From NCBI RefSeq assembly GCF_003946335.1, contig NZ_RHNX01000009.1:1-64000 (forward strand): DNA of 64,000 nucleotides, given 5' to 3'. A program made the position numbers and the translations under genes. The stretch comes from Levilactobacillus fujinensis (lineage in GTDB: Bacteria > Bacillota > Bacilli > Lactobacillales > Lactobacillaceae). Below the pieces are notes generated by a model, which saw only the letters and a list, made by a program, of their open reading frames with translations, ran no database searches and had not been told where the DNA came from. This document shows, in pieces, positions 5,150 through 54,839 of the stretch (position 1 is the stretch's first letter; each line of letters opens with the position of its first letter).

Positions 5150-5166
5150 CTAAACTTATCTAAAAA

Positions 5167-5280
5167 GAGTGGGATAAAAGGAGATTAGCTGGCGAGCATT
5201 ACGGCTGATAACTGAATAATCCTGGGCTTAGATTATTTGGTTATCAGCCGTAAGCGGAGTCAGCTACCTTTTGTCCTACG
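5167..5280. repeat. long imperfect inverted repeat after S-layer gene 2
   Basis: Two arms of about 50 nt (5169-5222 and 5231-5280) face each other around a short loop. The core TTACGGCTGATAAC (5199-5212) pairs perfectly with GTTATCAGCCGTAA (5240-5253). The outer ends GTGGGATAAAAGG and CCTTTTGTCCTAC are near-complementary. It looks like a small dispersed hairpin element (REP or MITE type). Confidence 0.6.
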
Positions 5281-46341: not shown

Positions 46342-46419
46342 CATGGGGAAAAATGTCACTAGCGGTCACTAGGCGGGCCACTTTTGACCGAAAATTTAGC
46401 ATAAAGAAAAGAGATTGCA

Positions 46420-46671
46420 TTGGCAGAAAAAGAAGTCACCCAGATTGAAATGATGAAGATTATCGCGCTGTTTCGTAAGGAAGGTTTCAAGGGGGAGTAT
46501 GAGACCTTCCAACGCGTGAGTGGCACCGACCGGGAGTTCTTTGTGGTCATGAGTAATGAGCAGGGCATCAAGGCGTTGTTCAAGGCTAGCTTGATGTTGA
46601 ACGCTGTGGAGTTCCAGTACGTGCTGGATGACAAGCATACGTTTGTGACGGAAAATGCGGACGCCAGCTAG
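46420..46671 (+). CDS. hypothetical 83-aa protein
   Basis: 83 aa, not recognised. Charged, soluble, predicted alpha/beta (QIEMMKIIALFRKEGFKGEY, then REFFVVMSNEQGIKALFKAS). TTG start with AAGAGA upstream. It overlaps the DUF3781 gene by 17 bp, so the two are coupled. A decayed copy of this gene is seen at about 50284-50480. Confidence 0.55.
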   Translation: MAEKEVTQIEMMKIIALFRKEGFKGEYETFQRVSGTDREFFVVMSNEQGIKALFKASLMLNAVEFQYVLDDKHTFVTENADAS

Positions 46672-46930
46672 CCAGAGGGCCTTACTGGTAAAAATCAGTG
46701 AGAACGTCTGCTATACCGAGTTGGTGTATCAGCGGGTGAACAAGAAGCTCTCAGTTGACTGGTCACACAGTGAGACTGAGGCATGGGTACAGGCCATCTT
46801 ACGTGATCCGGACTCTTTGGTTGAGCAGCGTGGTAAGAACTATTACGTGGCTAATCAGAGGAGGAAAAGCCAACTGACAGTCAATTCCCACAATTACCGG
46901 TTGATTACAGTCAATCGACTATCAAAATAA
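46655..46930 (+). CDS. DUF3781 family protein
   Basis: 91 aa. ENVCYTELVYQRVNKKLSVD and RGKNYYVANQRRK then LTVNSHNYRLITVNRL match the DUF3781 pattern (YTELVYERINKKL, KGKNYYVxN, INSxTYRxITVDR). Function unknown. Its start lies inside the end of the upstream gene. It ends before a perfect hairpin terminator. Confidence 0.75.
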   Translation: MRTPASQRALLVKISENVCYTELVYQRVNKKLSVDWSHSETEAWVQAILRDPDSLVEQRGKNYYVANQRRKSQLTVNSHNYRLITVNRLSK

Positions 46931-46943
46931 TAAGCAAACAAAT

Positions 46944-46977
46944 AAGGCTAGATTTCCTGTTGGGAATCTAGCCTTTT
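46944..46977. terminator. terminator after the DUF3781 gene
   Basis: Perfect 11-bp stem AAGGCTAGATT (46944-46954) with AATCTAGCCTT (46965-46975). A related hairpin with a similar TAGATTTCCTG segment stands at 53531-53571. Confidence 0.8.
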
Positions 46978-47112
46978 GTGATGGGCAAGTTAACGCCATG
47001 CAAAGTTAAAAGTAATCTGTCTTTCTTCCAAAGAGCGTGGTACAATACCTGTATCTTGGGGATTTGCAGGCGATACCCATGACCAACATTGCCGGTGATG
47101 GAAAGGTTCTTT

Positions 47113-47778
47113 ATGCGCATAAATGTTTTGCAACATACACCAAATGAAGGTCCCGGGAGCATTGCGACTTGGGCCGAATTGCACGGTCATGCGTTGTTTA
47201 CGTATCATCCCTATCAGTTCGGCCAACTTCCCACGGCAGTAGAAACAGACATGCTGATTATTTTGGGTGGGCCAATGAGTCCTAACGATGATTTGCCGTG
47301 GATCAAAGCCGAACGGGTGCTCATTCAAGACTTGTTGGCGCGCGATGTCCCCATGTTTGGCGCGTGCTACGGTGCGCAGCAAATTACGAAAGCCCTGGGT
47401 TATCCGGTCAGCAAAGCGCCGACTAAGGAAGTCGGTTGGGTGCCGGTATATCGGCAATCGTCAGTGATTCCGAATCTACCAGACAATCTAAATGTGTTGC
47501 ATTGGCACGAAGAGATGTTTGAGATTCCGACCGAGGCGACGTGGCTATTTGCGAGTGCGGCAGTTCGTAACCAGGGATTTGTGCTGAATCACCGGGTTGT
47601 GGGGCTTCAGTTTCACGTTGAACCCCGCCAGAACAATGTGCGCGAGATGGTCGTCAATGATTTTCCCTATATCAAGGGATCGGTGCTGAATCAGACCGCC
47701 GAAGATATTTTACGGGTAACGGTGTCTGGAAAAAATGAACGGGCATTGTTTGCTATTTTAGATTATATTATTGAATGA
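47113..47778 (+). CDS. class I glutamine amidotransferase, GMP-synthase-like
   Basis: 221 aa. MLIILGGPMSPNDDLPW, the nucleophile loop PMFGACYGAQQITKALG with Cys, HWHEEMFEIP, and GLQFHVEPR with the catalytic His and Glu are all present. The C-terminus is all helical. Stand-alone members act in gamma-glutamyl hydrolysis or unknown amide transfers. ATG 47113 has GGAAAGG with 6-nt spacing; the frame opens at 47089. Confidence 0.85.
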   Translation: MRINVLQHTPNEGPGSIATWAELHGHALFTYHPYQFGQLPTAVETDMLIILGGPMSPNDDLPWIKAERVLIQDLLARDVPMFGACYGAQQITKALGYPVSKAPTKEVGWVPVYRQSSVIPNLPDNLNVLHWHEEMFEIPTEATWLFASAAVRNQGFVLNHRVVGLQFHVEPRQNNVREMVVNDFPYIKGSVLNQTAEDILRVTVSGKNERALFAILDYIIE

Positions 47779-47795
47779 TGATGTTACCGAATAAC

Positions 47796-47841
47796 TAAGG
47801 GACTGGGCCTTTGAGGAAATCCTCATCGGTCCAGTCCCTTA
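47796..47841. terminator. terminator after the amidotransferase gene
   Basis: TAAGGGACTGG (47796-47806) with CCAGTCCCTTA (47831-47841) and an inner GAGG/CCTC stem. Confidence 0.8.
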
Positions 47842-47851
47842 ATTGTCTGAT

Positions 47852-47884
47852 CAACGTCGATACCGGCTGGCTTTTTTTAACGGA
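47852..47884 (+). pseudogene. fragment of a TetR-type gene
   Basis: About 32 bases are nearly identical (three or four differences) to 50010-50040 inside the intact tetR gene, the part coding QRRYRMAFLTAG. No further TetR sequence is readable here, so it is a relic of a duplicated copy. Confidence 0.45.
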
Positions 47885-48032
47885 AAATACCGACGCCGGC
47901 TAATCAGTCACTAATACTAGACCCGAATATCTTCAAAAAGAACGGCCAATCCTTGAGGGGTGCAATGCACAAGTGAAGTCCTTTCGTGGTTAAGGGGAAG
48001 CACCCAATAACTGACTGTTTGCAGATGAAAAA

Positions 48033-49427
48033 TTAATCTAACGGTGCCGTTGTCGACGTACGTTTGGGCGTTAGGAAGGCAACGACCAGTAACCCGACTG
48101 ACACCACCGCCATTCCCAGGTAGGCCACGTTGACCCCACGCATCAGAGCGGAACTGACGGCCAACTGACTCGTATTTTTAGCGACGAAATTCATGACGCC
48201 AACAAAGATTGCGGAACCAATGGCGCCACCAATCGTTCGGAGTGCATTGATTAGTGCAGTGCCGTGGGCCATTTGTGTTGGCGTAAAGCTAGCCATCCCC
48301 CAAGTCACCAGTGGCATCATCAGGCAGCCAATAGAGACGCTTCGGAGCACGTTCCAGGCCGCAAAAGTAATCAGTGAGCTGTGGACACCAAGTGGGACCA
48401 TGCCCAGGTTACTGAGAACCAGGCTGATTCCGCCCACAATAAACAGCCGTCGCATCCCGAAACGGTCATAGATTCGGCCGACAAAGGGACTAATGATGGC
48501 CATTGCTAGGGAACCTGGTAGTGTGACTAGTCCGGCTACCGTGGCGGAAGCACCTTGCACGGTTTGGACCATTAACGGTAGGATAATTGAAGACCCCATC
48601 ATTGCAAAGTAGAGTAAGACACTACCGATGACGGCGAGACTGAAATTACGGTTTTTGAAGGTCGTTAAGTCCAGAAAAGGATCGGTTTGTTTAAGCTGTC
48701 TTCGTGTAAAAAGCACACCAGCTAGTAGCCCCAGAACAATGGGTAACAGGACAGTGACGGAGACAAACTTCGCTGTGCCGACGTTGCCAATGCCAATGGT
48801 GAGGCCGGCAAAGGCGATGGCGCTAATCACAAATGAGCTGACATCAAATTTCTGCTTGCGGACGTCCAAGACATTTTTAAAGACGAGCAGCGCCATGATT
48901 AACGCAACCGTTAACAGACCAATAATTAAGTAGAAAATAGATTGCCAACCCCAGGTGTCGACGAGGATTCCGGCCAGGGTTGGTGCCAGGACGGGAGCCG
49001 CCCCGATGGACAGCCCGTACCAGCCCATAATTGATCCACGCTTTTCTGGCGGGTAAATGGCCAGTAGAATGACTTGCGCCATTGCACTCAAGAGACCGGT
49101 ACCGAGTGCTTGCATGACCCGGCCAATCATCATAATGGTAAAATTAGGAGCAATCACCGAGACGACCATCCCCGCAATCAACAGGGAAATCCCGGAAATG
49201 AAGAGCGGTTTCGTTGGGAACCGGGTAATTAAGAATGCGGTTAATGGCATCACAATCCCCATCGCGAGGGAAAAACCACTAGTCAGCCATTGGCCCGTGG
49301 TGACTGAAACGTGAAATTGGGTGATCATCACGGGCAGGGCCGTGCTTAAGGCAGTGGCTAAAGCCGATCCCGAGACGACTGTAACCATGATATCTAGAAA
49401 AATTAACGTGCGTTGACGATTTGTCAT
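48033..49427 (-). CDS. MFS drug exporter, DHA2 (EmrB/QacA) family
   Basis: 464 aa with 14 helices. TALPVMITQFHVSVTTGQWLT, the motif region ITRFPTKPLFISG, then RVMQALGTGLLSAMAQVIL and GLSIGAAPVLAPTLAGILVD (motif C, antiporter) mark a DHA2 multidrug pump. ATG at 49425-49427 has GAAGGAGTC upstream; the frame opens further at 49490 without a site. It is divergent from tetR, its likely repressor. Confidence 0.9.
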   Translation of the reverse strand: MTNRQRTLIFLDIMVTVVSGSALATALSTALPVMITQFHVSVTTGQWLTSGFSLAMGIVMPLTAFLITRFPTKPLFISGISLLIAGMVVSVIAPNFTIMMIGRVMQALGTGLLSAMAQVILLAIYPPEKRGSIMGWYGLSIGAAPVLAPTLAGILVDTWGWQSIFYLIIGLLTVALIMALLVFKNVLDVRKQKFDVSSFVISAIAFAGLTIGIGNVGTAKFVSVTVLLPIVLGLLAGVLFTRRQLKQTDPFLDLTTFKNRNFSLAVIGSVLLYFAMMGSSIILPLMVQTVQGASATVAGLVTLPGSLAMAIISPFVGRIYDRFGMRRLFIVGGISLVLSNLGMVPLGVHSSLITFAAWNVLRSVSIGCLMMPLVTWGMASFTPTQMAHGTALINALRTIGGAIGSAIFVGVMNFVAKNTSQLAVSSALMRGVNVAYLGMAVVSVGLLVVAFLTPKRTSTTAPLD

Positions 49428-49501
49428 TAAAAGACTCCTTCTCTCAATAGGCTCGGAGTGGTAGTATACGCTGGTGACGGGGAAAAGCAATCAACAATCT
49501 G

Positions 49502-49515
49502 CCAACGGGTGTTGG
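49502..49515. promoter_or_regulatory. candidate TetR operator
   Basis: CCAAC-GGGT-GTTGG, exact 5-bp arms, in the divergent promoter region between the MFS pump and tetR. Confidence 0.45.
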
Positions 49516-49595
49516 GATAATGGCAGTCGTGACTAGAGATTGAGGAGCCAGTCAAAGCGACAATAGCATGCCTGAAATCAGAAAGGAACGGTTCC

Positions 49596-50135
49596 ATGAA
49601 TACAGCACACAACCAACGCGCCCAAGAGACTGAAGCGCACATTAAATCCGTGTTTCTAACAATGCTAGCACAACGAACGGTACGGCAACCAATGAACGTC
49701 AAGCAGCTATGTGTGCATGCGCACATTAATCGCAGTACTTTTTACGTTCATTACAAGGACATTTATGATTTAGCCGAAAAAATTCAATTAGACCAGCAGG
49801 CCCAGGTGATTCAATTACTAGATCACGCACTTGTCGCAGCACCGGACAACTTAGCTTTCGTCATGACGCGCTTATTTGAGTTTGTGTATAAAAATCGTTA
49901 TTTCTACCAAGTGTACTTGCAACGCCACTCAGGTATTTTCCTGTTCGATTCTACAGAATTTCAAAAGCTTATGACAAAAATAGCAGTGCGACTGCCCCAT
50001 AATCCTGTCCAACGCCGATACCGGATGGCTTTTTTGACGGCTGGGGTTGGGGCGATGATGCGACAATGGTTAAAAGATGATTGTCAAGAAACACCGGTTG
50101 AAATGGCACAGTTAGTGGATTTGGCGTACTGGTAA
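49596..50135 (+). CDS. TetR/AcrR family regulator
   Basis: 179 aa. N-terminal HTH: IKSVFLTMLAQRTVRQPMN then VKQLCVHAHINRSTFYVHYKDIYDL, where STFYxHYxD is the family signature. The C-terminal ligand-binding helices (FEFVYKNRYFYQVYLQRHSG) resemble the TetR_C_33-like group. Likely represses the divergent MFS pump. Confidence 0.85.
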   Translation: MNTAHNQRAQETEAHIKSVFLTMLAQRTVRQPMNVKQLCVHAHINRSTFYVHYKDIYDLAEKIQLDQQAQVIQLLDHALVAAPDNLAFVMTRLFEFVYKNRYFYQVYLQRHSGIFLFDSTEFQKLMTKIAVRLPHNPVQRRYRMAFLTAGVGAMMRQWLKDDCQETPVEMAQLVDLAYW

Positions 50136-50283
50136 GAGTAGAAGTTGCGTAAGTATCAAGAAGTTAATCAAGAGACGTTGACCCCCACTTTGGGAGGACA
50201 GCGTATTTTTTGCATACTATGGTGAAAAAGGACGCTCCAAAACGTACGGAAAAATCTTTACGGACTTATCAACGACGTTAACC

Positions 50284-50480
50284 GGCAGAAAAAGCTAGTC
50301 ATAAGTGAGCCGGTTAATGGAAATAAGGGTGAGTGCGCAACCTTCCAAAGAATCAGTTGTATTTGACCGGGAGTTTTTCGTAATCATGAGCAATGAATAA
50401 GACATTGTTCATTGCTGGCCCGATGCTGAATGTCGTTGAGTTCCAGTACGCGTTGGCAAACACTAGTGAAAAGAGGTTAC
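50284..50480 (+). pseudogene. decayed copy of the 83-aa gene at 46420
   Basis: Readable in pieces: GGCAGAAAAAG at the start, TFQRIS, then DREFFVIMSNE followed by TAA, then PMLNVVEFQYAL. These match ETFQRVSG, DREFFVVMSNE and LMLNAVEFQYVL of the intact gene. Frameshifts, a stop and a deletion near the N-terminus separate the pieces. Confidence 0.75.
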
Positions 50481-50690
50481 CAGCTGTGGTGTAGGTGATT
50501 TTCAAAGGAACTTCGAAAAAGCACTTTTAGGGAATTAAAGAAAAAATGCTTCGGTGAGCTTAGTAGAAAATTGGTGAGTAGCAAAATGCTTAGTTATCAC
50601 TTGAAAATTAGTGACACTAAGATTTGTCTTAGCCTTATGTTTACGTGTTCCGTCAGTTATAGGGAAACTTATTTGCGAGGAAAGAATCCC

Positions 50691-50719
50691 TTGACTTACC
50701 ATATCCATGGATATATACT
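50691..50719 (+). promoter_or_regulatory. promoter of the Rrf2 operon
   Basis: TTGACT (50691-50696), 17 bp, TATACT (50714-50719). Confidence 0.75.
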
Positions 50720-50730
50720 ATCCGTGGATA
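50701..50730. promoter_or_regulatory. twin palindromic operator, probable Rrf2 site
   Basis: ATATCCATGGATAT (50701-50714, perfect) and TATCCGTGGATA (50719-50730, one off) lie 17 bp apart centre to centre, covering the promoter spacer and the base after the -10. The second gene of the operon encodes an Rrf2 regulator, so autorepression is likely. Confidence 0.6.
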
Positions 50731-50759
50731 ATAAAAGTCTTAGAAAAGAGGGCCTGTTC

Positions 50760-51335
50760 ATGACAACAAATATCGTTTTATTAGGCGGCAGTGGTTATAT
50801 CGGTCGGGAGCTCGTTAAAGCGTGGCGTTCCCGCGATGCCGACACAGAATTCTGGTTGCTCTCGCGCTCGGGAGCGACCCGCTTAGATCTTTCCGACGTG
50901 CACGGGGTTGCGGTGGATTTGCTACGGCCGCAGCTAGCCGATGACGCGTTGCCGGCCCGGATTGATTATATCGTCGACCTGGTCGGTGGTCCGAAGGATG
51001 ATCCGCAAGAGTTGGCGGACTTCAACCGGCTACCCGCGCAATTGATGCAACGGCTGGCGGACCAATACCAGCCAACCGCTATGGGTTTCATCGGCGGCAA
51101 ACTGGGTCCCAAGGCGTTCGTTGCCATCAAAAAGGACTTGATTCAGGAGCTTCAGTCTAGCGTCACGCCACTGGCCTTCGTCGAACCCACGCTGGTCTAT
51201 GGTGCCGGACGCAAGGATCAGATGACCCGCTTTGTGCCCCTTCTACGGGTCTTAGGCGTGATTGTTCCCAATCTCAGGCCGGTGAAAGTGGACACCGTCG
51301 TGACGAGTTTATTAAATGAATTATTAGCGAAATAG
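50760..51335 (+). CDS. NAD(P)-binding epimerase/dehydratase-type protein
   Basis: 191 aa from ATG 50760. NIVLLGGSGYIGRELVKAW has the GxGxxG Rossmann motif. AIKKDLIQEL and LAFVEPTLVYGAG match atypical SDR or NAD-epimerase proteins; the catalytic YxxxK is not evident. First gene of the Rrf2 operon, with AAAGAGGG upstream. The frame back to 50571 overlaps the operator and promoter and is not coding. Confidence 0.75.
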   Translation: MTTNIVLLGGSGYIGRELVKAWRSRDADTEFWLLSRSGATRLDLSDVHGVAVDLLRPQLADDALPARIDYIVDLVGGPKDDPQELADFNRLPAQLMQRLADQYQPTAMGFIGGKLGPKAFVAIKKDLIQELQSSVTPLAFVEPTLVYGAGRKDQMTRFVPLLRVLGVIVPNLRPVKVDTVVTSLLNELLAK

Positions 51336-51345
51336 TGAGGCTATT

Positions 51346-51810
51346 ATGAAAATTAGTAAGAGTATTGAACAGGGTATCTACGTCATCTTGATGATGGCTG
51401 TCCAAACGGCGCATGCGCCACTGAAGAGTCAACTGTTGAGTCAGCGCCTGGAAGTTTCCGATTCCTATTTGAAAAAGATTTTGCGCAAACTGGTGACGGC
51501 TGGTCTTATTGAATCGGTTGCCAGTAAGGATGGCGGTTTCATCATTCACAAGAGTGTGGCGGACATCACGCTCTACGACGTTTGTGCAGCGCTGGACGAC
51601 CTGGACACGTTAACGTTGCCGACGCTTCATCTGGCAGCAAAAATTTTCCCTGGGGATGCTGCCCACATTCAACGTAGCGAAGATATTGCGGTGGATGCGT
51701 TCACGACTGCTCACGACGCCTATGCTGCGTCGTTGAAACAAGTACCACTGAGTCATTTTTTGGAAGCGGGTAGTTATGAATCTGGCGTTGTAGATTGGCG
51801 CCAACTGTAG
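51346..51810 (+). CDS. Rrf2 family transcriptional regulator
   Basis: 154 aa. KISKSIEQGIYVILMMAVQ, then LLSQRLEVSDSYLKKILRKLVTAGLIESVASKDGGF, is the winged-helix pattern of Rrf2 proteins (with the GGF/GGY wing). Only one cysteine occurs, so an iron-sulfur cluster of the IscR/NsrR kind is unlikely; it may sense another ligand. It lies 10 nt after the first gene. Confidence 0.85.
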   Translation: MKISKSIEQGIYVILMMAVQTAHAPLKSQLLSQRLEVSDSYLKKILRKLVTAGLIESVASKDGGFIIHKSVADITLYDVCAALDDLDTLTLPTLHLAAKIFPGDAAHIQRSEDIAVDAFTTAHDAYAASLKQVPLSHFLEAGSYESGVVDWRQL

Positions 51811-51849
51811 ATTATTAGGTCACGTGAGTTTTAAAGGAGGATGTTTCAA

Positions 51850-52608
51850 ATGACAAAAGTTGCGATTATTACGGGTGCCGGTAAGGGAATTGGCAAGGCA
51901 ATCGCCAGTCAGCTGGTTACAGATGGTTTTCAAGTGGCGATTGCCGATATGGATTACGCTAGTGCGGTGGCGACGGCTGATGAGTTGGCCAATGCGCGGG
52001 CTTATCGCGTCAACGTAGCGGATCACGACGCCGTGTTCCAGTTGGTTGACCAAGTTGTCCGGGACTTTGGCCAGCTGGATGTCATGATTAACAATGCCGG
52101 AATCACCAAGGAAATTTTGTTGGAAGACATGGCGGGGGATGATTTTCAGGCATTGTTCGATGTCAACGTGAAGGGTGTACTGTTCGGTATTCAAGCCGCT
52201 GCTGCCCAGTTTAAACGGCAAGGTTCCCACGGAAAAATCATTAACGCCGCCTCGATTGGGGCTTATTCCGTGGCTGAAAAACACAGTGGTTATTCCGCAA
52301 CAAAATTCGCTGTGCGCTCGCTGACACAGGGGGCTGCTAAGGAGTTGGGTGCCGACCAGATTACCGTCAACGCTTACTGCCCGGGCTACGTTGAAACGCC
52401 GATGATGAACGCCATTTTACAAAACTATGCCGAACAGAACGGCACTACGGTTGAAGAAGAGATTGCCCGAGGGTCCCAACGAATTGCGTTGCGGCGGCCA
52501 GAGAAACCCGAGGATGTGGCGCAGGTCGTATCCTTCTTGGCGAGTGAAAAAGCCGATTATATTACTGGGCAAGCCATTGTGGCTGATGGCGGGGTCATTT
52601 ATAAGTAG
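51850..52608 (+). CDS. short-chain dehydrogenase, diacetyl/acetoin reductase (BudC)-like
   Basis: 252 aa. TGAGKGIGKAIA nucleotide loop, LDVMINNAGI, the catalytic Ser in NAASIGAY, YSATKFAVRSL with Tyr and Lys, and PGYVETPMMNAIL then GQAIVADGGVIYK. The N-terminus and the PGYVxTPMM segment are those of acetoin(diacetyl) reductases. AAAGGAGG at 51833-51840 fits ATG 51850 (9 nt), not ATG 51841. Confidence 0.85.
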   Translation: MTKVAIITGAGKGIGKAIASQLVTDGFQVAIADMDYASAVATADELANARAYRVNVADHDAVFQLVDQVVRDFGQLDVMINNAGITKEILLEDMAGDDFQALFDVNVKGVLFGIQAAAAQFKRQGSHGKIINAASIGAYSVAEKHSGYSATKFAVRSLTQGAAKELGADQITVNAYCPGYVETPMMNAILQNYAEQNGTTVEEEIARGSQRIALRRPEKPEDVAQVVSFLASEKADYITGQAIVADGGVIYK

Positions 52609-52623
52609 CGCAGGAGGCGAAGC

Positions 52624-53430
52624 ATGATGAAAATTTCAATCTGGCATACGGGGCTGGTGCGGGTGGACGAAGCCACGCCGTTCAGAAACTCTTCGCGGCT
52701 GCCTCTTGGACTAGGACGTGGTCGGGAGCATCAGGTGGTGCTGCCGGTGTCCAGTTACCTGATTGAACACCCCAACGGCCCCATCTTAGTAGATGCCGGC
52801 TGGAGCCAGAAAGTTCGGCAGCATCCTGTACAGGAGTTGGGACTAACGCGTTTCGCCGCCAAGCCGGTGTTGCCCGCGAGCTGGTCGGTGACCGAGCACT
52901 TGCAGCGGCGGGGAATTCTTACCAGTGACCTCAACTGCGTGTTGATGAGCCATTTGGATACCGATCACGTCAGCGGGCTGCTGGACGTCAATCCGACGCA
53001 ACCGGTGTACGTCAGTGAGCGGGAACTGGCCGCCGGTAACGCCCGGTTCAATGTACGCTACGTCAAACGGATGTGGCAGGGCTTGCGGATGACAGAGATT
53101 CCTTATCAACAGACACACCACGGTCCGTTGGGCTGGTCGTGGGACTTGTTCAACGACGGTCGCATTGAACTGATTCTGACGCCTGGACATTCCGCTGGGC
53201 TGATGACGATCAAGGTGACGGGTGACGATGGCCATTACGTGTTGTTAGCCAGTGACGTGGGTTACGACCAGTTGAATTTGACCAAGCTCCTCTTACCCGG
53301 TATCTTAACCAGTGCCACTCAAGAAATGGCAGCACTAGGCTGGGTCCAGGCGTGCGCTGCCGACCCGCGGTGTGACCGGGTGATTTTTAACCACGATCGA
53401 CAGGTACGGGAAGGTGTACTGACGGTTTGA
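52624..53430 (+). CDS. MBL-fold hydrolase, N-acyl homoserine lactonase-like
   Basis: 268 aa. VLMSHLDTDHVSGL, LILTPGHSAGLMTI, LLASDVGYDQ and VIFNHDRQ follow the AiiA-type metallo-beta-lactamase order. The HxHxDH motif reads HLDTDH, so the second metal His is Asp; this variant occurs in the lactonase-like subgroup. Substrate not known; a lactone or thioester is likely. AGGAGG upstream of ATG 52624. Last gene of the Rrf2 operon. Confidence 0.75.
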   Translation: MMKISIWHTGLVRVDEATPFRNSSRLPLGLGRGREHQVVLPVSSYLIEHPNGPILVDAGWSQKVRQHPVQELGLTRFAAKPVLPASWSVTEHLQRRGILTSDLNCVLMSHLDTDHVSGLLDVNPTQPVYVSERELAAGNARFNVRYVKRMWQGLRMTEIPYQQTHHGPLGWSWDLFNDGRIELILTPGHSAGLMTIKVTGDDGHYVLLASDVGYDQLNLTKLLLPGILTSATQEMAALGWVQACAADPRCDRVIFNHDRQVREGVLTV

Positions 53431-53530: not shown

Positions 53531-53573
53531 AAATACGGTTAGATTTCCTGAATGGGAGTCTAGCCGTATTTTG
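53531..53573 (+). terminator. terminator of the Rrf2 operon
   Basis: AAATACGGTTAGATT (53531-53545) with AGTCTAGCCGTATTT (53557-53571), two G-T pairs. It is related in sequence to the terminator at 46944. Confidence 0.8.
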
Positions 53574-53741: not shown

Positions 53742-54839
53742 TTAGACCGCTGGTTGCTGCTGGGTCACGCAATGCAGCATCCCACCATATTGATATAACG
53801 CGGTCACATCAATGCCCACAATCTTTCTATCCGGATAGAGACGGCCGAAGATTTTTAAGGCAGTCTGGTCATTTTTATCGTGATAAGTCGGCACAAGGAC
53901 GACATCATTGCCCACGTAATAATTTAGGTAGCTTCCCTTATAATCTAAGCCCCGCACCTTTTTGGCGGTCATTGGTAGGGTAACCAATTTATAGGGCTTG
54001 CCTTGCGCATTGGTCGCAGTTTGGAGCTTAGTATAATCTTGTCGGTGACTCCCTTCGTAAAGCTGATAAAAGTCGGCCTTTGACACAGTAAGAATTGTCC
54101 GACTATCGTAGAATCTAGCCATGCCGTCAATGTGGGCGTCAGTAATGTCTTCACCGATAACACCGTCAAGCCAGATAAAGTGAATCACGCCGAAATATTT
54201 CGTCAAATAGGTTTCTGCTTTGGCCTGACTGATGCCAGGATTACGGTTAGGATTCAGGACGGAACTTTTGCATAACATCGCCGTGCCATGCCCATCCAGT
54301 TCTATCGAACCACCTTCCAGAACAAAGTTAGGAATTGAGAGGAGCGGTAGGTTCTTAGCTTTGGCGACTGCTGCGGGGAGGTGATTATCATTCTTATGTG
54401 CAGTTTTATCGCCCCAACCATTAAACTTGAAATCTGCGATGGCCAGCTTACCGGCTGAAGTGCGAACGAACAGGGGACCGGTATCTCGTGACCAGACGTC
54501 GTCACTTTTTGAAATGGTAAAGTCCACCTTGGTCATGGGGATTTTCGCCTGGGTCAAGCGGGTTGTAATACGCTTCTGTTCCTTGACGTCGTAGGCGATG
54601 ATGTGAACGTTTTCGCCGTTAACCAACGCTTTGGTCATTGCTACCCAGATGGGCGTAATCTCATTCTGATAGGCCCGGCCATAAGTGAAGCGATGGGGCC
54701 AGGTCAGCCAAGTTCCTTCATGTTTTGCTGTTTCACTTGGAAAATAATAGTGTTCCACGGGCGTTGCCTCCTTGTTTATCGTGCAGCCACTCAAGAGAAG
54801 TAGAATGAAGCATAGCACCAACTTCAACGATTTCATCAT
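53742..54839 (-). CDS. lipoprotein of the agmatine deiminase / peptidyl-arginine deiminase family
   Basis: 365 aa. The N-terminus is a lipoprotein signal (LVLCFILLLLSGC, lipobox LSGC). The catalytic parts are complete: TWLTWPH, DDVWSRDTGP, NFVLEGGSIELDG, ITDAHIDGMARF with His, and the C-terminal GGMLHC with the nucleophile Cys. Cytoplasmic AguA converts agmatine to N-carbamoylputrescine; this form should be tethered outside the membrane. AAAGGAGG lies before the ATG. It is downstream of the MerR gene on the same strand, with a terminator between. Confidence 0.88.
   Translation of the reverse strand: MMKSLKLVLCFILLLLSGCTINKEATPVEHYYFPSETAKHEGTWLTWPHRFTYGRAYQNEITPIWVAMTKALVNGENVHIIAYDVKEQKRITTRLTQAKIPMTKVDFTISKSDDVWSRDTGPLFVRTSAGKLAIADFKFNGWGDKTAHKNDNHLPAAVAKAKNLPLLSIPNFVLEGGSIELDGHGTAMLCKSSVLNPNRNPGISQAKAETYLTKYFGVIHFIWLDGVIGEDITDAHIDGMARFYDSRTILTVSKADFYQLYEGSHRQDYTKLQTATNAQGKPYKLVTLPMTAKKVRGLDYKGSYLNYYVGNDVVLVPTYHDKNDQTALKIFGRLYPDRKIVGIDVTALYQYGGMLHCVTQQQPAV

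Follow-up and report, generated by a model that had tools for sequence, protein, structure and literature searches.

We describe a four-gene operon in Levilactobacillus fujinensis whose core, a gene for an atypical short-chain dehydrogenase/reductase (SDR), here called NADbind, paired with a gene for an Rrf2-family regulator, recurs across the Lactobacillaceae behind a conserved candidate operator that is lost where Rrf2 is lost. The operon lies in the 64,000-nucleotide stretch analysed here (positions 1 to 64,000 of contig NZ_RHNX01000009.1; the window) and continues with an SDR of the acetoin/diacetyl reductase subfamily and a protein of metallo-beta-lactamase fold (MBL). The conserved unit is the NADbind-Rrf2 pair; the SDR and the MBL protein are variable cargo that recurs near this core elsewhere, and the exact set of four genes is rare, being present, as judged by the Rrf2 orthologue, in 2 of the 35 Levilactobacillus genomes. 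Most of the paired Rrf2 proteins are devoid of Cys. We lean, with moderate confidence, towards a reading in which Rrf2 would be a ligand-responsive and largely Cys-independent repressor of a locus for carbonyl/lactone detoxification.

The NADbind-Rrf2 pair and its candidate operator

A search of 397 Lactobacillaceae genomes at E up to 1e-12 detected NADbind in 31, and a reading of all 31 loci placed an Rrf2 gene beside it, on the same strand and sometimes with one gene between, in 24 of them, distributed over 14 genera; the paired Rrf2 proteins are 39-64% identical to that of the window (tblastn). At class level NADbind occurs in 2 further genomes out of 299 (G600 and G622), both from one other family, a sample of which gave 2 of 196. 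Within Levilactobacillus, the Rrf2 orthologue shows 96% identity and the proteins of the other genomes 32-38%. The entire four-gene block is kept in L. cerevisiae (L031) at 86% DNA identity, with a 59-bp promoter run (50685-50743) that is identical and genes that are 85-88% identical; for the four genes dN is 0.019-0.050 and dS 0.52-0.75, so all four are under purifying selection. In G600, of another family, the order is MBL, a perfect operator, NADbind and Rrf2. Separation of the four genes in all relatives, which the sequence-only reading had set against its operon, is thus not what we find: the L. cerevisiae block, the 24 pairs and the G600 arrangement all keep genes of the set together. 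A move of the operon to a different genome site was considered and rejected, as the L. cerevisiae-like genome G019 holds the same region in rearranged form (39.6-50.2 kb of the window, the operon, and 53.7-55.7 kb correspond to 3.6-15.2, 28.8-31.6 and 21.2-23.2 kb of its contig). Neither a plasmid location, NADbind having no plasmid match by tblastn, nor a Leuconostoc plasmid Rrf2 as the same module (the match covers 3% of the query, near a YhgE/Pip gene and with no NADbind) was retained. A literature search, outside which most subscription papers lay, found no description of the combination or of its operator.

The two palindromes upstream of NADbind had been reported as spaced by 17 bp; this is the distance from start to start, with 5 bp between them (Table 1). 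Conservation of the site, with the consensus TATCC-RT-GGATA, is linked to the presence of Rrf2. Where Rrf2 is present, 20 of 26 loci have an operator with at most 2 mismatches in 12 upstream of NADbind; none of the 5 scored loci without Rrf2 has one, 2 of the 7 such loci being too incomplete for scoring (Fisher p = 0.003, using 19/25, with G600 excluded). Shuffled upstream sequences reach this mark in at most 3 of 27 cases, against 18 of 27 observed. Moreover, in the 24 of 29 promoters with a best site of at least 9/12, among them the near-identical promoters of the window and L031, offsets of +17 and -17 from that site gave 6.50 and 6.21 matches, the next-best offset giving 4.21 (mean over all offsets 3.43, sd 0.69). 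Weaker sites at the 17-bp period are seen in the relatives too, and the two peaks therefore point to a tandem array of sites, with a period of 17 bp, around the -10 element.

It is the pair, and not the single motif, that stands out in the window. Single sites with at most 2 mismatches are not enriched (8, against a shuffle mean of 6.66), but the window has no second pair of similar, near-perfect palindromes of 12 bp at a distance of 12-25 bp. Because a comparable pair was found in 0 of 40 Markov sequences of window length, this pair is not expected by chance. The exact sites occur nowhere else in the 3.0-Mb genome. A wider regulon in this genome was considered and rejected: one-mismatch sites (7 forward and 12 reverse, against 5 and 5 in the reversed control) are close to expectation, and those printed resemble coding sequence by eye. 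A search of 18 other genomes gave 28 distinct exact sites, of which 12 precede NADbind, one precedes the MBL gene of G306 and 15 lie elsewhere; a similar promoter was not seen at the 12 of these 15 that were viewed. In one locus (L139), TTGACT adjoins an exact site with a different spacing.

The four open reading frames span 50760-53430 with intergenic gaps of 10, 39 and 15 bp. That they follow one promoter, as first read, is borne out by their common strand and by the promoter-like sequence ahead of NADbind, although with 5 such patterns in the region and 3.8 expected the promoter call is weak by itself. For the SDR we adopted the start at 51850 instead of 51841, as in the list of open reading frames, because AGGAGG (51835-51840) touches the ATG at 51841 and is separated by 9 nucleotides from that at 51850, which makes the latter likelier. 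A hairpin downstream of the MBL gene, absent from the list of the terminator scan, may end the transcript.

Table 1. Genes and candidate control elements of the operon, in window coordinates
Feature	Position	Strand	Basis
NADbind, atypical SDR, Rossmann fold, FxxxK instead of YxxxK, 191 aa	50760..51335	+	Pfam Epimerase; profile, model, alignment
Rrf2-family regulator, sole Cys = Cys80 (unconserved), 154 aa	51346..51810	+	Pfam Rrf2
SDR of 252 aa, acetoin/diacetyl reductase subfamily, with intact YSATK	51850..52608	+	Pfam adh_short/adh_short_C2; TIGR02415
MBL, metallo-beta-lactamase fold, AHL-lactonase-like (AHL, acyl-homoserine lactone), HLDTDH, 268 aa	52624..53430	+	Pfam Lactamase_B
Promoter-like sequence, TTGACT-17-TATACT	50691..50719	+	promoter scan; within the 59-bp run kept in L. 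cerevisiae
Candidate operator site 1, TATCCATGGATA	50702..50713		exact match; sits in the promoter spacer
Candidate operator site 2, TATCCGTGGATA	50719..50730		exact match; starts on the final base of the -10; 17 bp from site 1
Hairpin, 18-bp stem, possible terminator	53531..53571		z -7.2; short U run

The proteins of the operon

The regulator is assigned to its family by the Pfam domain (69.9 bits, cut-off 30), falls slightly below the cut-off of the NCBIfam superfamily model (72.1 against 73.3 bits) and lies under the equivalog cut-offs for IscR, NsrR and RirA; the nearest solved structure is RsrR (6hsd/6y45). Characterised Rrf2 regulators sense by Cys or by Fe-S clusters, while some clusters of the family lack conserved Cys and His and are uncharacterised (PMC9218516). 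The proteins paired with NADbind form a Cys-poor group. No Cys is present in 17 of 25, Cys80 is found in 7, and none of the 25 has a Cys in alignment columns 81-133, the stretch to which we assign the Cys of the SifR connector and that of its helix 5. Thus, a Cys switch is not supported as the mechanism that these proteins share, nor is the proposal that the regulator senses through its single Cys. SifR/YwnA proteins are marked by one conserved Cys that caps the N-terminus of helix 5 (HxxPNPxC); it was not found in the paired proteins, nor were the cluster-ligating Cys of IscR, NsrR, RirA and RsrR. The [2Fe-2S] ligands of RsrR are E8, H12, C90 and C110 (PMC9218516); among the paired proteins E8 is kept in 24/25, H12 in 0/25, and C90 and C110 are absent. 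Conserved instead are F101, H107 and W151, invariant in the 25, along with H23 (24/25) and Y/F12 (25/25).

NADbind gives a confident model (predicted local distance difference test, pLDDT, of 93.4), with fold matches to extended SDRs, TIP30, complex I subunits of the NDUFA9 type and biliverdin reductase B. The top sequence matches of its profile are the complex I subunits NDUFA9/NUEM (E 4e-4), which carry FNHTK at the aligned place; YwnB (4R01) is not among the best 60 of the 61 profile matches with E up to 1. The nucleotide-binding GGxGxxG is present in all 20 rows that cover that stretch, and where a catalytic YxxxK would stand, all 22 rows have F120-x3-K124. NDUFA9 is a non-catalytic subunit that binds NADPH, and a preference for NADP(H) goes with an Arg that follows the second strand. 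Because the catalytic Tyr is replaced by Phe, NADbind is probably accessory or sensor-like.

The third gene had been called diacetyl/acetoin reductase-like, which agrees with our analysis. Like the enzymes of known structure (1geg, 3wye), its product passes the TIGR02415 acetoin reductase subfamily model (313.6 against 304.35 bits) with YxxxK intact; unlike them, it falls short of the equivalog for (S)-acetoin forming diacetyl reductase (NF006394; 273.1 against 381 bits). Related SDRs occur in 176 of 397 Lactobacillaceae genomes. Only those of G171 and G145 reach 68% identity, the next best being 55%, and in both genomes this SDR is divergent from NADbind-Rrf2 and within about 2 kb of it. Elsewhere the pair carries or adjoins a gene for an aldo/keto reductase, for another kind of SDR or for a protein like polyketide cyclases.

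For the fourth gene, described as AiiA-like, the fold is confirmed and the motif is not. The model (pLDDT 90.9) has the fold of AhlX, AiiA and 4-pyridoxolactonase, with TMq 0.82 to AhlX (9kho) and 0.78 to AiiA (3dha), and H110, D114, H115, H189, D211, Y214 and H257 of the AHL lactonases are kept. In contrast to AiiA, AttM and AhlX, however, the protein has HLDTDH in place of HxHxDH, Asp112 replacing the second His, and it scores far below what the NCBIfam models demand (for AttM, 95 bits where the cut-off is 390). This replacement goes with a different neighbourhood. MBL genes occur in 47 of 397 Lactobacillaceae genomes, at 50 places, of which 38 were viewed in wide stretches and 5 with 1.5-kb flanks; 7, including a fragment without the motif in G337, are outside the counts of motif and neighbour. 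NADbind is close by at 5 of the 7 loci whose gene has HxDxDH, against 1 of 33 for HxHxDH (p 1.8e-4; 4/6 and p 8.7e-4 without L. cerevisiae). Conversely, a TetR gene lies beside 27 of 33 HxHxDH genes and none of the 7 with HxDxDH. Five more HxHxDH loci, seen with the 1.5-kb flanks, add no NADbind (for a total of 1/38), four TetR genes and one Rrf2 gene of another type. The genome of the window itself also holds an HxHxDH copy with TetR (L106; G000:C1:114701-115504). In the tree of these proteins, from which the short L164 was dropped and in which L202 lacks SHxxxDH by the pattern used, HxDxDH requires two changes; long branches meet there, and the motif may have had a single origin. In G306, the MBL gene is divergent from NADbind and has a promoter of its own, in which TATCCATAGATA and TATCCATAGAAC follow TTGACA and are spaced by 17 bp. 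An anti-phage role was dismissed, the match to LmuA being weak (E 4e-4, 17.6 bits). Separately, in G314 and G335 an Rrf2 of a different type directly precedes an HxHxDH MBL gene, with no NADbind (L062 1009-2277, 36% identity, and L104 4091-5405, 32% identity).

Proposed control of the locus and its rivals

The operon could be a detoxification cassette of the stress type that is silenced by the Rrf2 repressor it encodes. Dimers of this protein would occupy the tandem 12-bp sites, with their period of 17 bp, over the -35 and -10 elements and so keep RNA polymerase out. Rrf2 would be released by a small organic ligand, for which a reactive carbonyl, a quinone or a lactone is most likely; release would proceed largely without Cys chemistry and probably through an inter-subunit cavity that keeps E8, Y/F12 and H107 and that corresponds to the place of the Fe-S cluster in relatives. 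Derepression would then provide more NADbind, as an NADP(H)-binding atypical SDR with a probably accessory or sensor-like part, and more Rrf2, as negative feedback; the diacetyl/acetoin-reductase-like SDR would reduce the carbonyl, and the MBL hydrolase would open a lactone or ester. Two parts of the sequence-only reading are supported at the level of sequence: a single operon of the Rrf2 type that has an operator to itself, and cargo of carbonyl-reductase and lactonase-fold type.

A number of observations weigh against this reading. What we infer from sequence comprises binding and repression, the ligand, the substrates, and the parts played by NADbind and the MBL protein. No adjacent Rrf2 was found for 7 of the 31 NADbind genes; 6 of the 26 loci with Rrf2 miss the two-mismatch mark (by having 3, 3, 3, 3, 4 and 5 mismatches), and the operator consensus was derived from the window itself. 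Most copies of the pair are without the MBL gene or this SDR, and the SDR genes of G145 and G171 have no operator of their own near the start. The MBL gene of G306 has an in-frame stop; in G622, NADbind and the MBL gene are both broken and no Rrf2 was found within 12 kb. Finally, with one of its metal ligands substituted, the MBL protein might be a poor lactonase.

A thiol switch would operate by alkylation of Cys80 by a quinone, methylglyoxal or nitrosative agents, upon which Rrf2 would leave the DNA in a SifR-like manner. Cys80 is indeed the only Cys of the window protein, and SifR acts through one Cys (PMC9218516), but 17 of the 25 proteins do without Cys despite having the same operator and partner gene, no row has one in columns 81-133, and the non-conserved Cys84 of SifR is dispensable for DNA recognition (PMC9218516), so that we regard this explanation as improbable. 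A regulator that binds a metal ion or a cluster by way of E8, H23 and H107, without Cys, would accord with the conservation of these residues (24/25, 24/25 and 25/25) and with E8 being a ligand in RsrR (PMC9218516); with three of the four RsrR ligands missing and a cargo that is not of the metal type, this is more improbable still. Least probable, and only marginally credible, is that four unrelated genes are read from one promoter, the MBL protein and the SDR being functionally untied: the scarcity of this cargo among the pair copies, and of the block in the genus (2/35), is in line with it, whereas both cargo genes recur independently near the pair and all four are under purifying selection in two species.

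The alternative that we take most seriously, although it is unlikely, is a module of redox poise in which a non-catalytic NADbind loaded with NADP(H) would modulate the Cys-poor Rrf2 by contact, and reductases and hydrolase would follow the redox state. It draws on FxxxK and GGxGxxG in all the rows that bear on them, on the NDUFA9/NUEM matches with FNHTK at the aligned place, on the position of NADbind as first gene and most constant partner, and on Streptomyces RsrR, whose paired gene is of the NmrA type and codes for an NAD(P)-binding protein (PMC5015018). The contact is, however, purely postulated, the NADbind genes without adjacent Rrf2 do not fit, and Phe at the place of the catalytic Tyr is compatible with other chemistry. 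A bolder combination, a class of Cys-free Rrf2 in which an altered, NADP(H)-loaded SDR would be co-sensor to a thiol-independent repressor on tandem palindromes spaced by 17 bp, driving a co-evolved hydrolase whose metal site (HxDxDH) is rebuilt, is slightly more doubtful again. In any event, this Cys-poor group of Rrf2 proteins has an operator that is defined, a partner that stays constant and cargo that can be assayed, all in harmless, food-associated bacteria. Sensing by a Cys-less Rrf2 thereby becomes directly testable, and the HxDxDH (NADbind-linked) and HxHxDH (mostly TetR-linked) forms offer a natural contrast for a change of substrate in the lactonase fold.

Surroundings of the operon and comparison with known systems

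A dispersed intergenic repeat with the core TAGCTGGCGAGCATTA has 57 copies (at most 2 mismatches) in the genome, against 1 in the reversed control; a copy lies at 5161-5269 of the window and another (L031 8809-8859) directly after the L. cerevisiae operon. The 3.8 kb at 46405-50228 are 94% identical to G019, the neighbouring shared blocks being 70-86% identical, and may result either from strong constraint or from an exchange in the recent past. A 93-bp stretch (50232-50324) that separates the operon from the TetR gene is 75% identical to L031 9672-9764, beside another gene, and is possibly a decayed remnant. An agmatine-deiminase-like gene (53742-54839; Pfam PAD_porph), below the agmatine deiminase cut-offs, is present in 3 of the 35 Levilactobacillus genomes; the start of its product, MMKSLKLVLCFILLLLSGC, resembles a lipoprotein signal by eye.

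Among known systems, RsrR of Streptomyces venezuelae is alike in having a gene for a Rossmann-fold NAD(P)-binding protein as partner, divergent and of the NmrA type, and two adjacent sites within the shared promoter region (PMC5015018). Unlike RsrR, the regulator described here lacks three of the four [2Fe-2S] ligands, H12 being replaced by Y/F; the sites are 12-bp palindromes and not 11-3-11 as described for RsrR, and NADbind has no DNA-binding part. In SifR/YwnA-YwnB of Streptococcus pneumoniae and Bacillus subtilis, an Rrf2 repressor likewise controls detoxifying enzymes together with a Rossmann protein that binds NAD(P)H, and ywnA and ywnB are neighbours in many genomes (PMC9218516), like NADbind and Rrf2 of the window. 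YwnB resembles biliverdin reductase B (PMC9218516), itself among the fold matches of NADbind, whereas the profile matches of NADbind are SDRs of the NDUFA9 type. The system differs from SifR/YwnA in having no conserved Cys and in its tandem TATCC-RT-GGATA operator, in contrast to the TGTAA-N9-TTACA reported for SifR/YwnA, there being no TGTAA in 50681-50760.

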